From positions 1 to 10,192 of the forward strand of contig PJAB01002164.1 of the NCBI GenBank assembly GCA_002887195.1: 10,192 bases of DNA. The letters are read 5' to 3'. Position 1 is the first letter of the stretch. Every line of letters starts with the position of its first letter. A program made the translations under genes and the position numbers. Source of the stretch: Chrysochromulina parva (lineage: Eukaryota > Haptophyta > Prymnesiales > Chrysochromulinaceae). The notes beneath the pieces were generated by a model. That model was not told the origin of the DNA. It worked only from the letters and a program-made list of their open reading frames with translations, and did not search any database. Positions 799 through 10,192 of the stretch are shown here, in pieces.

Positions 799-2055
799 TC
801 ACTCACATGCCCGCACCGTCGGACCTCCACCATTGAGTTGTCTCATCGCCTCGCGCGAAGTGCAGCCTACGACGCAGCCCTTTGGCCAGGTCGGGTCTTC
901 CGTTGGAGGTGGCGCCAACTCGCCAAAGCTCCATTGGCATTCGTGCGTCGCGAAATTGGGGCTCACTCGCAAGGGCAGCCCGAGCTCAGCAAACAGATTC
1001 TGGGCGGGCAGCTTGCACGAGTTGAGGCACATGCCCTTGCAATTGGACTCCTGCAGGAATTTGCACTTCTCCACCACGAGCCCCCCCAACTCGCCGTCTG
1101 AGCGTCGGTTGAGAGACGCAGGGCCAACGAGGAAGCCGAACGCATACGGAGCCACCACCGCAGTCAGCGTCGGGGCGTAAAACCATGGACCGAGCTGCCG
1201 GCCCGGCTCGAGCCACTGCTTGCCCACGGGCAGCTTGGAGCGCACCCAGCTGAAACCGTCGGCGAGCCACTGTGGGTCGGCGCCAATGCGCTCGTCCTCG
1301 GGGTCAAAAGTCGGCACCTTGCCGCCCATGAAGATGCGATAGAAGGGCGGCAGCACGGGCGTCATCAGTACGCGAAGAGTCCGAATGAGCACCTCCTGCT
1401 GCGCCGCGGGTGAGACGCCCCGCGCCGAGAGCATAAAGCGGCGCATCTCGTCGATTAGCCCACGGATGCCCTTCTCGTCACTGCGCGAGACGCCGGTTTC
1501 CTTTGAGTAGATGTCGCGCGTCAATTCAAGGATTGCGGCCTCGAGCCCGTTTTCGCCCATCGCCTTGTCCGCTAAGGGGCTATCGGGCACCAACCCGTCG
1601 GCAGTGAGACCGCCGATCAGATCAGTCTCGGGGAGTGCGTCGGCGCGTCGCGGCGCTGTGTCGCACGCACGCAGCGGTATGTCTTGCCGGTTGGGCAGCT
1701 CACGTCGCGGGATGGGCAAGAAGGTCGCTGTCTCAATGTAGGCGGCACGATCCGACTTGAGCAAATCGACGAGCAGCTGCGAGCGCCGCTGACGCTTGAG
1801 GAAATCGGCGATCGTCTCGAGAGCCGATGGCGACGCGTTGGTCCCAGCTTGATCGATCGATTCTGTAAGCTCAGCCACCGACAGCGGCGACGCCTGCAGC
1901 TGCTGCAATGCTAGACCCAACAGTAGTACGTCGCCGGAAGTGGCCGGACTACGTCCAAGGATCTCAGCTGTACCCACAGTAGCGTGAATTTGTGAGGCTC
2001 GGCTGGCTGGCCGCAAGGAGAGGGCGCTGGCCGCGTGCCACCAAAGCATTAGCAT
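799..2055 (-). CDS. D27-like protein (DUF4033; beta-carotene isomerase family), probably plastid targeted
   Basis: A single uninterrupted frame of 418 residues with ATG at 2055 and TGA at 799-801. Residues about 308-400 carry the DUF4033 signature of the DWARF27 family: FLVGPASLN near 308-316, then a cysteine cluster at 331, 339, 343 and 347 (C-K-F-L, C-K-G-M-C-L-N-S-C-K), a PNF element at 366-368, C373, a PPP run at 382-384 and C394/C398. Plant D27 is an iron-dependent plastid enzyme that interconverts all-trans- and 9-cis-beta-carotene; algal paralogues are mostly uncharacterised, so substrate and direction here are inference. The N-terminus (MLMLWWHAASALSLRP) is short and hydrophobic with an ASA-L boundary before a basic, Ser/Ala-rich stretch, compatible with the bipartite signal-plus-transit leaders of complex plastids. 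Residues 40-240 are helical, family-variable sequence. No intron is needed. The gene is divergent from the membrane protein gene starting at 2215. Confidence 0.88.
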   Translation of the reverse strand: MLMLWWHAASALSLRPASRASQIHATVGTAEILGRSPATSGDVLLLGLALQQLQASPLSVAELTESIDQAGTNASPSALETIADFLKRQRRSQLLVDLLKSDRAAYIETATFLPIPRRELPNRQDIPLRACDTAPRRADALPETDLIGGLTADGLVPDSPLADKAMGENGLEAAILELTRDIYSKETGVSRSDEKGIRGLIDEMRRFMLSARGVSPAAQQEVLIRTLRVLMTPVLPPFYRIFMGGKVPTFDPEDERIGADPQWLADGFSWVRSKLPVGKQWLEPGRQLGPWFYAPTLTAVVAPYAFGFLVGPASLNRRSDGELGGLVVEKCKFLQESNCKGMCLNSCKLPAQNLFAELGLPLRVSPNFATHECQWSFGELAPPPTEDPTWPKGCVVGCTSREAMRQLNGGGPTVRACE

Positions 2056-2214
2056 GGAGGATGTATCTCCAAAAGCCAGATTTGAGTTTAGAAGAGCTGG
2101 CGATTGTCAGATCCTTGGGTCCAACGTGAGTGTGTGGGTCCGTTTCGTTACCTAATTTGGTGTTTCGTTACCTAATTTCGTTCTAAATTGATGTGAAGAG
2201 CAAATGGCGTGATC
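2056..2214. promoter_or_regulatory. Divergent promoter region with a 17-bp tandem element
   Basis: Only about 160 bases separate the ATG of the minus-strand D27-like gene from the ATG of the plus-strand membrane protein gene, so both promoters must overlap here or lie partly in each other's 5' untranslated region. The interval is richer in AT than the flanking genes. It contains GTTTCGTTACCTAATTT twice, at 2142-2158 and 2162-2178, a 20-bp period of about two helical turns. The layout fits a shared binding site for the two genes, but no known factor site was recognised. Confidence 0.5.
2142..2178. repeat. Tandem 17-bp direct repeat in the divergent promoter
   Basis: GTTTCGTTACCTAATTT occurs at 2142-2158 and again at 2162-2178 without mismatch, separated by three bases. 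It lies 36 bases upstream of the ATG at 2215 and 87 bases upstream of the ATG at 2055. It could be a paired protein-binding site or a recent small duplication. Confidence 0.8.
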
Positions 2215-4068
2215 ATGTTGCACTACCCAACCGACTCGCGGTCAACAGCGAGCCGAGCGAGCCCCGTTGACATGGCCAGCAATGAGTTGCGCGCGTTCAA
2301 ACAACGCATGCTCCGTGAACGCATGGAGACGCTCCGAGATTGTTACGGCGATGCTTCCAGCGTGAAGCTCACTCGCTTATCGCACCCACTCGCGTATCGT
2401 ACGCCGCGCCCCGATGACACGAAGATGAGCAAGTTGCGGGTTCGGTACGGCAAGAGCGACGAGCCTCCGATCCTCATATGCTGCACGGCTCTGCCCTTTA
2501 GCACGGTCAAGGCTGTCGCTCTCTTCCTTGAGGGCGCGGCCATGTTCAGCCTCTCTCGCACGATCTACGATCTGATCGCTGCCGACATCCTCGGCTTGCG
2601 GCCGGTACCCTTTTGTGGCACTCCATACCACCCGGCCCCGTGCAACCCGGTCGGCTCAGCGTGGGACCAGGCTGTCTTTGCGCTCATCGCCATCCCAGTG
2701 ACCGGCTTTGCCAAGCTCATGTTCGGCAACCACCTCATTTGCAACTTCATCGTCGGCTGGGCGTGGGCGAACGCCCTCTCACAGGCCGTCGTGGAGATGA
2801 AGCTCTTCTACCCGGCCATCTGCGAGATTGGCAGCCTCACCACAAGTGGTGACTGCATCGCCTTCGATGCTGCCTTTGCAGTGGCGTTCACGCTCACGAC
2901 GGCGCTCGCGCTCTGGCTCGTCATCGTGATGATCGAGCCCTTCGCCGCGAGGACCGAGATCAACGCCGAGGTCGACGCCGAGATCAACGAGCTCGATAGC
3001 ACGAGGAGCGGCCACACCAGCGCGGCCAATCATGGCCTCGCCCTGGATGCTCATGCGCATTCTCGAGCTGCGTACGATACTCCGCCTCCTCGACGCCCAG
3101 AGGGTACCTCGAGCGCCATCTTGGGCACCTCGGATACTCCGCCCCCTCGACGCCCAGAGGGTACCTCGAGCGCCGTCTTGGGCACCTCGGCCTCCCCACA
3201 ATCGGCCGCGCCACCGTCAAGTCCGACAGCCTCAGCGCCGACGAGGACCTCGCGCTCAGTACAGCGCTCGTCAGCCTGTGAGGAGTTCGTCATGGACTTT
3301 ATTGCGATGGTTAAGTGCGTCGCCTCGGTCGTCACCATGGTCTTGTGGTACAAGACCTTGTACATGGCCGAGTACCTCGCTTTGCCTAGAGATAGTGGGC
3401 GGTACCTCAAGGTGGAAATACAGGTGCTGTACACGCTGGCGATCACTTATGTTGCGACCCTCCTATCCAGCCTTGTGTCCAGGCGCCTCGAGCAGCAGGG
3501 AGTTGCATACTCGTATGCGTTGGTGTACGCAGACGCAGTCCAGGAGGCGCTCGCATTCGTCGTCGGTTGCGCGTGGTCAGACGTGGCCACGGCACTCTTT
3601 CTCTCGCTCAGTCAGGCGCCCACCCTACGTGTCCTCGGCCAGAACCTCGTCGTGACCCTCAGCCTGACGCTCTTCGTCTCGTACTTGATCGTGATCGCTG
3701 GCAAGAGGCATGAGACCTCCGCGAGCCGCAAGGCCACCGGGATGTTCTTGCTCATCCACGGCGGCGCCTTCTTTGTCGGCTGGACATGGCTGATTTGCAT
3801 CCGCGACCTCTACGTGCATTACCTCCGACTCTCCTCTCTCCTCGTAGTCGAGGCGGTCGCCCATGCCGTCGCCCCGACGTACGTGGCGTCCCTCGCGATG
3901 TCGTACTCGACGGCTGCCAAGGCGATAGCCATCCTTTCGGGATCTACGTTTACGGTCGTGCTCGCGCTCGTCTTCTACGCTGCCTCGAGGTGCATCCTTG
4001 GCGCGAAGAAGGCGCGGGATGAGCAGATCGAGAGGCAAGCCGAGACGGGTGGCACCGAGCTGGTCTAA
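2215..4068 (+). CDS. Uncharacterised multi-pass membrane protein with three F-x-V-G-x-[AT]-W modules
   Basis: 617 residues from ATG 2215 to a TAA at 4066-4068. An in-frame GTG lies just upstream, but ATG is the expected eukaryotic start; a second ATG at 2272 (GACATGG) has a better context and is a real alternative. I do not recognise the family. The N-terminal 80 residues are basic and soluble. About ten to eleven hydrophobic segments follow in two blocks, roughly residues 90-240 and 358-591, joined by a polar linker at 245-353 that starts acidic (NAEVDAEINELD) and becomes Pro/Ser/Thr-rich. F-x-V-G-x-[AT]-W recurs at 178-184, 448-454 and 519-525, each within a hydrophobic segment that follows another one, so the protein seems built from a repeated two-helix unit. 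The linker contains a 19-residue tandem repeat. The C-terminus is charged and probably cytosolic. A transporter or channel is possible, but no catalytic or ion-selectivity motif is visible. Confidence 0.75.
   Translation: MLHYPTDSRSTASRASPVDMASNELRAFKQRMLRERMETLRDCYGDASSVKLTRLSHPLAYRTPRPDDTKMSKLRVRYGKSDEPPILICCTALPFSTVKAVALFLEGAAMFSLSRTIYDLIAADILGLRPVPFCGTPYHPAPCNPVGSAWDQAVFALIAIPVTGFAKLMFGNHLICNFIVGWAWANALSQAVVEMKLFYPAICEIGSLTTSGDCIAFDAAFAVAFTLTTALALWLVIVMIEPFAARTEINAEVDAEINELDSTRSGHTSAANHGLALDAHAHSRAAYDTPPPRRPEGTSSAILGTSDTPPPRRPEGTSSAVLGTSASPQSAAPPSSPTASAPTRTSRSVQRSSACEEFVMDFIAMVKCVASVVTMVLWYKTLYMAEYLALPRDSGRYLKVEIQVLYTLAITYVATLLSSLVSRRLEQQGVAYSYALVYADAVQEALAFVVGCAWSDVATALFLSLSQAPTLRVLGQNLVVTLSLTLFVSYLIVIAGKRHETSASRKATGMFLLIHGGAFFVGWTWLICIRDLYVHYLRLSSLLVVEAVAHAVAPTYVASLAMSYSTAAKAIAILSGSTFTVVLALVFYAASRCILGAKKARDEQIERQAETGGTELV
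3076..3189 (+). repeat. 57-bp in-frame tandem duplication coding for two 19-residue units
   Basis: Units at 3076-3132 and 3133-3189 differ at 2 of 57 positions. They encode DTPPPRRPEGTSSA[I/V]LGTS twice (residues 288-306 and 307-325 of the membrane protein); one of the two changes is silent and the other gives Ile/Val. The unit is a multiple of three, so copy number can change without breaking the frame. It sits in the polar linker, where length variation is likely to be tolerated. Confidence 0.95.
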
Positions 4069-4333: not shown

Positions 4334-6178
4334 CTAGGTCACAATATCGTACGTGCGATGAGTCTTGTCGACATCGAACATGTGCGTCCATGGCACGTCT
4401 CCTCCAAACGTGCGGTTCAGGTTGTGCATCCATTCCTCAACCGACTGCCAAAAGTGGCTGTGCCAGATCCCGTGCCAGTCATCGCAGATGCCGTTGGCAC
4501 ACGTCTGCTTCGGGAACGGAATGGCCTTAGCGTGCCGGTTCTCGAACTTTCCGGGCTGCCCTGGTTTGGGGACCCGGGCTGAGTCTGCGATCCCCCATCC
4601 AGTCCCGCCGGGCAGTATGCGGTAGTCGAGATCGAATCTGAACTGCATCTCGTGGAGCAGATACTCCGGAAGGGCGAAGATCTCGTCCGTCTCATTGTTG
4701 AACGGCCCATAGGTCGTCGACTCGGGCCGTGGCTCGTCAGGAGCCCAGCCCATCAAGCACCATCGTGTCGCATTCAACCACGGCGTGATCAACGGCGAGC
4801 GCCTGCCCGAGCTCGCCATGGGCTGGGGCGCCTTATTGGCTTGGCCAGCCGCCTTCTGGCCGGCCTCGAGGAACTTGGCAGGCCAAAAGAAGAAGACGTC
4901 CATGGCGAAGTGAGGGACGACCTGCATGATGCGCTCGGGTGTCTGAACGCGGCCACCGAGGAATGCCGTCGTGTTCGCGGTCAGCATGCAGTGAGGGAGG
5001 TCCATCAGCATACAATCAGTTGTCATCACACCTGAAAGCGGCCGCCGAGGAATGCCGTCGTGTTCGCGCAGCCGGGCTCGACCCACTCCATCCAATTCGC
5101 GAAGGCGGTCGCACCGTACGGGGTGAGGACCGCGTCGGGGCCACTGTTGTACAGCACCCAAGGGAAGTGCGCCCACATCGAGGCCGTTGCGGCGAGGATG
5201 GAGAGCTCACCTGTGCGGTAGATGGACGAATCATGAGAGAAGATGGGAGAGGAGTACATGGGCGAGGATGGAGAGCTCACCGCACAGGTAGCCCATGTTC
5301 ACCGTCGGACGCACGAGCATTCGGAGCATCTGGCGTGGACCTTCGAGCTCATAGTACTGTAGCATGCGGATCAGCTCTTTCTCACTCCAGGCCGCGTTGT
5401 TGTGTACCAGCAGCAGAGCGGCCAGACCGAGGCCACGCCCCCCTGGCCGCTGGCTCACGTGCGCGAGGGCGGACGCACTCCACCGGAGCATCGCCGCCGA
5501 CTGCTTGTACTGCAGGTCCTTTTGATGGTGGCTCGACATCATGACGAGACCGTAGGCGACGGGACGACTCAAGTGCAGAGCGGAGAGCGCCTCGTCGGCC
5601 TCGGCGCCTTGCAGCACCGTCCCATCCGGAGCGAGAGCTGCTGTCAGCCCCTTGTATGGCTCTTCCCACCCCTTGGTCTTCGTTACCGGAGGCGTCATCG
5701 GATGCCTGAGCTCAAAGTCGTCGAGCCATTTGGAAAAATGCTTGCCGTGGTAGCCATACTTGCCCCATGTTGGCTGTACCGGCGCGGGCCGTGTGTAGCG
5801 CCGTCGGACACACAGCTCCATTGACGACGAGCACTCCTCCTGTGCAAACTTCGCCTCTAGGGTCCGCACAGGTGCATCCTGGGGGCACTGCTGCAGCCGA
5901 CTCCGAATCTGCCATGCCAACCGTTGCCGCGTCATGTTGCCGTCCAGCCCTGCAGCCAAGATCCGTCGGGCTGGCTGGCAGCTGTGTCCCCAGTCCCAGC
6001 ACGTTTGGAATACGTCCAGTGTGCTGCCCATGCGTGACGCCTCACAATCGTGCCGGTTGCGGTTCTGCGTGCAATCCCGGACCTTGGTTCGGTGCTCGAA
6101 AGAGCAGTGGCGCTTGTGGCCAATGGTCGTGTCGGTGCGGCACAGAGGAAAAAGGAGCCATATGATCAGGACCTTCAT
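4334..6178 (-). CDS. Three-exon gene for a secreted or luminal protein of 561 residues (possible glycosyltransferase-like family)
   Basis: Exons are 6178-5281, 5210-5032 and 4942-4334 on the minus strand (898 + 179 + 609 = 1686 nt, 561 codons plus TAG). Removing the two GT-AG introns joins three separately open frames; retention of either gives an early stop. The start MKVLIIWLLFPLC is a short signal peptide. Residues 20-125 are Cys-rich with an N-glycosylation sequon at NMT (81-83). Residues about 225-390 are the most conserved-looking part: NMGYLCGELSILA, then WVLYNSGPDAVLTPYG, then FLGGRFQTPERIMQ and AMDVFFFWPAKF. I associate the order of CGEL, a GPD loop after FPWV, F-P/Q-TP and a MD-FFWPA element with poorly characterised algal glycosyltransferase-like proteins, but this is from memory of family style and unverified. 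More sequons occur in exons 2 and 3 (NTT, NAT, NET, NRT), supporting passage through the secretory pathway. No membrane anchor is evident after the leader. Exon structure is well supported; function is not. Confidence 0.82.
4943..5031 (-). other. Intron 2 of the secreted-protein gene (89 nt, GT-AG)
   Basis: Minus-strand junctions are TTTCAG|GTGTGA and GTTCAG|ACACCC. Retention gives a stop (TGA) four bases into the intron, and the length is not a multiple of three. Splicing reads FLGGRFQ-TPERIMQ. The last 37 bases of the intron are a near copy (35/37) of the last 37 bases of the upstream exon, so the end of exon 2 appears twice. GT-AG is met only at the right-hand end of the repeat in minus-strand orientation. 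Confidence 0.82.
4943..5068. repeat. 37-bp near-perfect direct repeat bordering intron 2
   Basis: Copies at 4943-4979 and 5032-5068 match at 35 of 37 positions (period 89, equal to the intron length). The differences are at 4948/5037 and 4955/5044. The right copy is the end of exon 2 and codes for the ANTTAFLGGRFQ segment; the left copy is the 3' end of the intron. Confidence 0.93.
5191..5281. repeat. 21-bp perfect direct repeat bordering intron 1
   Basis: Copies at 5191-5211 and 5261-5281 are identical over 21 bases (period 70, equal to the intron length). One copy is exonic at the start of exon 2; the other is the start of intron 1 plus the last base of exon 1. The sequence between the copies is unrelated to the exon. 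Confidence 0.95.
5209..5289. repeat. 11-bp perfect inverted repeat straddling both splice junctions of intron 1
   Basis: ACCTGTGCGGT at 5209-5219 is the exact reverse complement of ACCGCACAGGT at 5279-5289. In the minus-strand transcript, ACCUGUGCG|GU at the 5' junction can pair with ACCGCACAG|GU at the 3' junction. Both cuts fall after the ninth base, so the pairing is symmetric about the two splice sites. Three to four bases at each end overlap the direct repeat. Confidence 0.9.
5211..5280 (-). other. Intron 1 of the secreted-protein gene (70 nt, GT-AG)
   Basis: On the minus strand the junctions read CTGTGCG|GTGAGC at the 5' end and CCGCACAG|GTGAGC at the 3' end. The length is 23 codons plus one base, so retention shifts the frame and ends at a stop at 5231-5233. 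After splicing the reading is GYLCG-ELSILAATAS. The first 20 bases of the intron are the same as the first 20 bases of the following exon, so the cut position is ambiguous by sequence alone; the GT-AG choice fixes it. No transcript data are available. Confidence 0.85.
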
Positions 6179-9774: not shown

Positions 9775-10192
9775 ATGTATCCCGAATGGGAATGTATCCC
9801 ATGATGTATCCTGATGTATCTCAAATGTATTTACATGCCCTGTTACATTCCAAGAGCATACATGTATCTTGACATGTTGCATGTATTTCACACGTATCCC
9901 AAACGAGTCCAAGATACATTTTGGGATACACATCAGATACATCAAGATACATGTATCTCGGGCGCTTCCTTTGTGTCACACTGGATACATGTCAGGATAC
10001 ATCAGGATACGTGTACATGTATCTTGGACTCTTCATCACGATACATCAGGATACACCGAGATACAAAATCAAGATACATGTATCTTGGACGGGATACATG
10101 CGGGATACAATCTGAAACGCATACCTCGAATATATCCAGTGAGGTACGTAACTGAGATGCAAGATACATGCGAGATACATTCGAGATACATT
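9775..10192. repeat. AT-rich array of GATACAT-type units with an orientation switch
   Basis: About two dozen copies of a short word, GATACAT or its complement ATGTATC, fill this stretch and reach the right edge. From about 9776 to 9900 nearly all copies read TGTATC (for example 9793, 9805, 9815, 9863); from about 9912 on, most read GATAC (for example 9912, 9925, 9936, 9996, 10006, 10040, 10050, 10060, 10174, 10185). Local spacing is often 10-12 bases, exactly 10 at 10040-10060. Where the two orientations abut they make palindromes, such as CAAGATACATGTATCTTG at 10070-10087 and AGATACATGTATCT at 9945-9958. The sequence is degenerate rather than a clean satellite. Open frames through it are repeat artefacts. 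Confidence 0.85.

Follow-up and report, generated by a model that had tools for sequence, protein, structure and literature searches.

Two predicted introns bordered by long exon repeats in Chrysochromulina parva, and dispersed repeat families of the same design

Introduction

The origin of new introns has long been debated, and few recent gains still bear a footprint that can be read. Introners are the closest described systems. In the portion of the account by Gozashti et al. (2022; PMC9860276) available to us, previously characterised introner families have target duplications of 3-9 bp (the figured examples have 4 and 8 bp), occur in both polarities, are spliced in a manner that mostly preserves mRNA length, and may be without terminal inverted repeats. 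In the available part of the Daphnia study, neointrons carry exon repeats of 4-12 bp that are ascribed to staggered breaks (PMC4202315). The accessible passages on the introners of the protist Amoebophrya describe direct repeats of 3-5 nt and inverted repeats of 8-20 nt, mostly in non-canonical introns (PMC7789003).

Here we examine a 10,192-nt stretch of DNA from the haptophyte Chrysochromulina parva (the window), in which two neighbouring introns of one gene are each bordered by a long direct repeat of exon sequence. Judged from their sequence, these introns work like introners, and their duplication footprint is longer than in the descriptions in PMC9860276, PMC4202315 or PMC7789003, to the extent that those texts were available. 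In common with the introners of PMC9860276, as excerpted, this genome has short dispersed families that would make introns, the element contributing one splice site and the duplicated target the other. Unlike in those introners, the duplications here measure 13-45 nt, with a median of 24 in the reduced set defined below, and account for roughly one third of the intron. The ends of the elements vary, and sequences related to them also form minisatellite-like arrays or sit in exons as apparent in-frame insertions. The Daphnia neointrons, in what we could consult of PMC4202315, likewise have internal repeats, whereas the repeats here are longer and the donors come from recurrent dispersed families. 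The Amoebophrya introners share with those of the window direct repeats over the exon/intron boundaries, but the introns here are of the GT..AG type with far longer direct repeats (PMC7789003, in the part available). A published intron made of duplicated gene sequence takes its splice sites from the duplicated sequence, as here; it consists of the gene sequence itself, whereas the introns of the window have a middle part unlike the exon. A search confined to open-access literature returned no paper that mentions both introners and long direct repeats.

Results

The host gene lies on the minus strand, and both of its introns are predicted from reading frames, paralogues and splice dinucleotides. 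Its 561-aa product has no Pfam match at an E value of 0.1. The features of the gene, in window coordinates, are as follows.

6178-4334, minus strand: host gene, three exons (6178-5281, 5210-5032 and 4942-4334), 561 aa once spliced
5280-5211, minus strand: predicted intron 1, 70 nt, GTGAGC...CACAG, phase 1 in codon 300
5261-5281, minus strand: repeat 1, upstream copy; one exon nucleotide plus the first 20 nt of intron 1, giving the predicted 5' splice site
5211-5260, minus strand: unshared part of intron 1; ends in CACAG and would give the 3' splice site
5191-5211, minus strand: repeat 1, downstream copy; last nucleotide of intron 1 plus 20 nt of exon 2
5031-4943, minus strand: predicted intron 2, 89 nt, GTGTGA...TTCAG, phase 0 after codon 359
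5032-5068, minus strand: repeat 2, upstream copy; the end of exon 2
4980-5031, minus strand: inserted element of intron 2, 52 nt, bearing the predicted 5' splice site
4984-5010, minus strand: 27-nt core of family C inside the intron 2 element, from a pattern search of the assembly
4943-4979, minus strand: repeat 2, downstream copy; the 3' end of intron 2, giving the predicted 3' splice site

Excision of both introns leaves a single frame of 561 aa. The unspliced frame meets a stop inside intron 1, and with intron 1 alone excised there are stops in intron 2. Repeat 1 is identical at 21/21 positions with a period of 70, repeat 2 at 35/37 with a period of 89, and in both cases the period equals the intron length. 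When the window was shuffled 60 times by codon blocks, no exact repeat at a period of 40-200 exceeded 13 nt, whereas the two introns have exact runs of 21 and 24 nt. A first-pass annotation had given these coordinates, lengths, repeats and periods, had considered border repeats of this length to be beyond chance, and had noted opposite polarities, with the intronic copy at the 5' end of intron 1 and at the 3' end of intron 2; the repeat, frame and shuffle analyses bear it out on each of these points.

The 52-nt unshared part of intron 2 aligns without gaps at 47/52 positions to a sequence on contig C469 (L089) that sits directly behind a different exon, where the flanking repeat is just 8-9 nt. 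A 30-mer from the left end of the element matched the window and L089 only. The 27-nt core, searched with up to three mismatches, gave 30 matches on 18 contigs including the window, and the reversed-pattern control gave none; several of these family C matches are tandem units of about 24 nt and others are single. A flanking repeat of the target type (score of at least 15) was present in 3/17 fetched family C loci (L131, L133 and L138; the fetched loci were L089 and L129-L144, of which L144 could not be scored), and the one at L131 is 37 nt long with a score equal to that of a 35/37 match. At the other scored loci the repeats either lie within arrays or score less than 10. On these matches intron 2 has its interior in common with unrelated loci, as introners do, and L089 is a candidate intron. 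The interior of intron 1 behaved differently: two probes (29 and 30 nt, up to three mismatches) matched the window only, and its similarity to families A-C did not rise above that of shuffles. At the sensitivity used, intron 1 thus has no sequence shared across unrelated loci, and since no relative of its interior was found, its assignment to the introners rests on architecture. The suggestion that the interiors might belong to a dispersed family therefore holds for intron 2, with its 30 core matches, and finds no support from the two probes for intron 1.

Larger families of the same design are present in the genome. The core of family A, the 23-mer GCATGCAAGTGCTCACCACGGCG, matches the assembly exactly at 395 places, and its reversed control matches at none. 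We examined 65 copies with enough flank, at 63 loci, drawn from matches in list order and from those in sampled contigs; as a control, upstream and downstream flanks were paired from different copies. For families A and B only exact matches were counted, and the fetched loci are part of those matches. A flanking direct repeat with a score of at least 14 was found in 43/65 family A copies and in 3/650 mismatched pairs, and one with a score of at least 18 in 34/65 copies and 0/650 control pairs; in 22/65 copies a repeat scoring at least 14 was absent. At a score of at least 13 (47 copies) the repeats are 13-66 nt long (median 28) and 84-100% identical, 19 of them perfect. A second core-like stretch lies within 150 nt in 13/65 copies, among them those with repeats of 44, 48, 55 and 66 nt, the four longest apart from L064; these 44-66 nt repeats with a second core nearby likely reflect tandem growth. 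Removal of the 13 copies left a reduced set of 52, in which 33/52 scored at least 14 (control 4/520) and 25/52 at least 18 (control 0/520). The duplications in this set, at a score of at least 13, are 13-45 nt long with a median of 24, and 16/37 are perfect. Many family A copies have filler between the duplication and the core.

A long form starting with GTACGTTGATTGCCACTGATG is present in 31 exact copies, and 11/19 of those fetched have a repeat with a score of at least 12, compared with 2/190 in the control. Each of its repeats ends in AG directly before the GT of the element, while the right end varies. Family B, with the 20-mer core CTGATTGCCTCCCTCATCAG, has 525 exact copies; 20/26 score at least 12, but its control, inflated by arrays, reaches 57/260, and for that reason we dropped family B as main evidence. 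At L018 3593-3779 (minus strand), units resembling the family A core form a tandem array with a spacing of 29-32 nt, so possible donors exist as minisatellites.

Of 48 family A copies with a score of at least 12, 29 have GT..AG in register with the repeat. Their typical order is the exon and, past the predicted splice boundary, the GT... of copy 1, followed by filler, core, pyrimidines and CCCCACAG, with the second boundary placed before the GT... of copy 2. These copies have the polarity of intron 1 of the window, the element bringing the 3' splice site, whereas the long form has the polarity of intron 2, the element bringing the 5' splice site. Both polarities therefore recur elsewhere, in agreement with the first-pass view that splice sites are taken from either edge. 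The family A copies with GT..AG have a median intron length of 74 nt (IQR 71-83, n = 29). Duplication length and insert length are negatively correlated in these copies (Spearman -0.59, p = 0.0008, n = 29) and in the reduced set (Spearman -0.46, p = 0.03, n = 23). The long duplications suggest a role for the target copy in lengthening a short insert to a size that can be spliced.

The period is divisible by three in 12/19 family A copies without GT..AG and in 7/29 with it (9/15 and 6/23, respectively, in the reduced set), so many of the copies without GT..AG look like in-frame exon insertions. At seven loci (L069, L041, L082, L077, L051, L033 and L070) the family A core stands between exon repeats at a period divisible by three and the repeat begins at the core or no more than 5 nt after it; from their sequence these are apparent in-frame coding insertions without splicing. 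L041, L070 and L082 have a second family A core nearby.

Further GT..AG candidates with in-register border repeats were found across 220 kb (the window plus L005-L027). Other candidate introns with border repeats, for which the first-pass annotation had proposed a genome search, thus exist in several families and at several loci, and this, together with the dispersed interior of intron 2, upholds its appeal to introners as a precedent. An unbiased check covered 200 kb (L008-L027, window excluded), using array-filtered repeat pairs with a score of at least 16. At periods of 55-100, GT..AG was in register 13 times over both strands (10 distinct pairs), compared with 3.0 +- 1.7 expected; at periods of 101-400 it was in register twice, compared with 2.6 expected. 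The test by itself is of moderate weight, since raised counts were also seen for some control dinucleotide pairs (TG..GA 10, AG..TG 7). The same statistic from unfiltered repeat pairs was discarded as uninformative because minisatellites dominate it.

We then consider what the spliced products would encode. Forty-three excised candidates (29 family A copies with GT..AG and 14 of the long form with a repeat score of at least 9) were translated, and ten of the products were chosen by eye for recognisable sequence and scanned against Pfam. A domain above the cut-off spans the junction in six of these ten hand-picked products: ABC_tran (L083), EPSP_synthase (L105), C2 (L087), Myosin_head (L066), Gelsolin (L045) and Pyr_redox_2 (L064). 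The period is not divisible by three in 5/6 of these loci. L072, L095 and L071 gave sub-threshold matches only, and at L076 the domain begins at the junction. A frame is open within 150 nt on each side in 20/29 cases after excision and 15/29 before, although in sampled sequence with 64% GC, from a GC-rich genome, open frames alone discriminate poorly.

Relatives of the host gene bear on the age of the gains. Three paralogous stretches were found in the same 45-Mb assembly: one on contig C911 (L007) has a single open frame aligned across both intron positions, one on C1290 (L006) reads across both positions in an alignment that is weak and gapped near intron 2, and one on C702 (L005), which covers intron 1 only, reads across that position. 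The gene segments that traverse the introns, used as homology queries, returned one protein each, P0002 and P0003, and no relative of the host protein was found among viral contigs. P0002 is 43% identical and ungapped across both intron positions; it comes from a 1.6-kb ENA contig that may not be genomic DNA. As expected of introners, the insertions are thus absent from related genes, namely the paralogues and P0002. A near-identical strain (P0001, P0003) carries intron 1, judged from protein sequences only. Its frame reads GELSILTHVLLSHVLLSHLLS where that of the window reads GELSILAHVLLSHLLS, and its translated sequences have one residue altered in the intronic repeat copy of intron 1 and a 15-nt unit doubled. 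P0003 continues into intron 2, where its first residue is the same as in the window. Since these records come from other contigs, an assembly artefact is unlikely, and since intron 1 and the beginning of intron 2 are present in the near-identical strain, both gains probably predate its split from the strain of the window. The first-pass reading of a recent gain is upheld only in part: the paralogues and P0002 are uninterrupted at the intron positions that they cover, but intron 1 and the opening residue of intron 2 already occur in the near-identical strain.

Discussion

Both introns likely arose by an insertion into an exon that also duplicated the target sequence, the joining step being the more conjectural part. 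A short piece of DNA would enter the exon and the exon sequence at that point would be duplicated (21 nt at intron 1, 37 nt at intron 2). The end of the insert would carry one splice site, a GT at intron 2 and a pyrimidine-rich tract plus AG at intron 1, and the duplicated exon copy would supply the other. Splicing would then remove exactly one repeat period, comprising the insert and one copy of the target, and leave the mRNA unchanged. The insert of intron 2 belongs to a dispersed repeat family of this genome. Selection would retain those insertions that leave the message intact once they are excised, and this would account for the end of the unit that bears the splice site lying flush with the duplication.

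How the insert was joined is less certain: a short repeat donor may have been copied while a staggered break was repaired, or by template switching that jumped backwards. The long and variable duplications, the variable element ends and the occurrence of donors in minisatellite-like arrays favour repair or template switching over a transposase with fixed ends. Microhomology at the variable end of three truncated copies is clear in L105 (8 nt), partial in L097 and absent in L099. More tentatively, and with rather more doubt than confidence, we suggest a class of introners that spreads without a dedicated transposase, its short repeat donors being copied into exons in the course of break repair or template switching, with about 13-45 nt of the target copied a second time. 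If such a class exists, the target exon is itself part of the new intron, giving one splice site plus spacing, and the introner and break-repair models of intron gain are joined in one genome.

Introners of the MITE-like DNA-transposon kind, moved by a transposase that makes an unusually long target duplication, would explain much of what is seen, for dispersed families, target duplications, a divided supply of splice sites and both polarities are all as published. One transposase normally produces a fixed duplication length and fixed ends. Here the length varies (13-45 nt in the reduced family A set), the element end opposite the splice site is not constant, and the window has duplications of 21 and 37 nt in place of the short target duplication of 3-9 bp in published families. 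Because selection on introns masks the raw length distribution, a transposase with an unusual footprint could still be at work; we regard this explanation as unlikely but worth keeping in view.

The target-primed, LINE-like route, by which an excised intron RNA would be retrotransposed into a new site, typically leaves duplications of variable length and truncated copies. Such duplications and truncations are present here, and in one class the right end is the intron's own 3' end, CACAG. The other class has a fixed left end and a varying right end, however, which means that copies are not all truncated from one side. In addition, the 23-nt core, or a point just past it, is where some copies lacking splice sites end, and no poly-A tract was noticed. 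Retrotransposition is on balance improbable.

The classic model, tandem duplication of an exon segment bearing AGGT, predicts a repeat period equal to the intron length and splice sites at the edges of the copies, both of which are seen, but it also requires the whole intron to resemble the exon. The unshared 50 and 52 nt do not: compared with the exon one period away they match at 15/50 and 9/50 positions for intron 1 and 13/52 and 8/52 for intron 2, and the unshared part of intron 2 belongs to a dispersed family, which contradicts the model for that intron. Local tandem duplication, which the first-pass annotation had offered as a possible origin, was rejected on these figures and is very improbable. 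The notion that these are old, ordinary introns whose border repeats arose by chance, gene conversion or minisatellite growth draws on the presence of intron 1 and of the beginning of intron 2 in the near-identical strain and on that of related sequences in arrays, but it is the least probable of all, as the repeats exceed chance lengths, relatives read through the intron positions, and the register of repeat with splice sites recurs at other loci.

Insertion with duplication of the target is thus the reading we prefer, and because the arrangement recurs, the ways in which introns can be gained may be observed directly in this genome. With families of 395 and 525 exact core matches, and the footprint in 43/65 of the family A copies examined, duplication length, ends and splice-site choice become countable, which makes competing models separable.

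Several minor observations accompany these results. Among viral contigs, one carries the family A 23-mer and none the family B 20-mer. The former is an IMG/VR contig in which a family A element at the contig end (L088 4495-4554) is followed by GTGAGT; it is possibly a chimeric assembly or a virus-borne copy. At L094 a 22-nt target is present in three copies, one with a single change, with two elements between them, an arrangement that would fit repeated insertion or duplication at one site. Elsewhere in the window, an intronless 418-aa ORF at 799-2055 (minus strand) has a D27-like C-terminal domain (PF13225), which perhaps points to an organism with plastids, and a 57-bp tandem repeat at 3076-3190 (two copies, 96%) is an in-frame coding duplication inside a 619-aa ORF at 2209-4068. 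Positions 9790-10192 are occupied by a dense degenerate satellite of the GATACATG type, and similar motifs are found on another contig, at about 820-1070 of L010.
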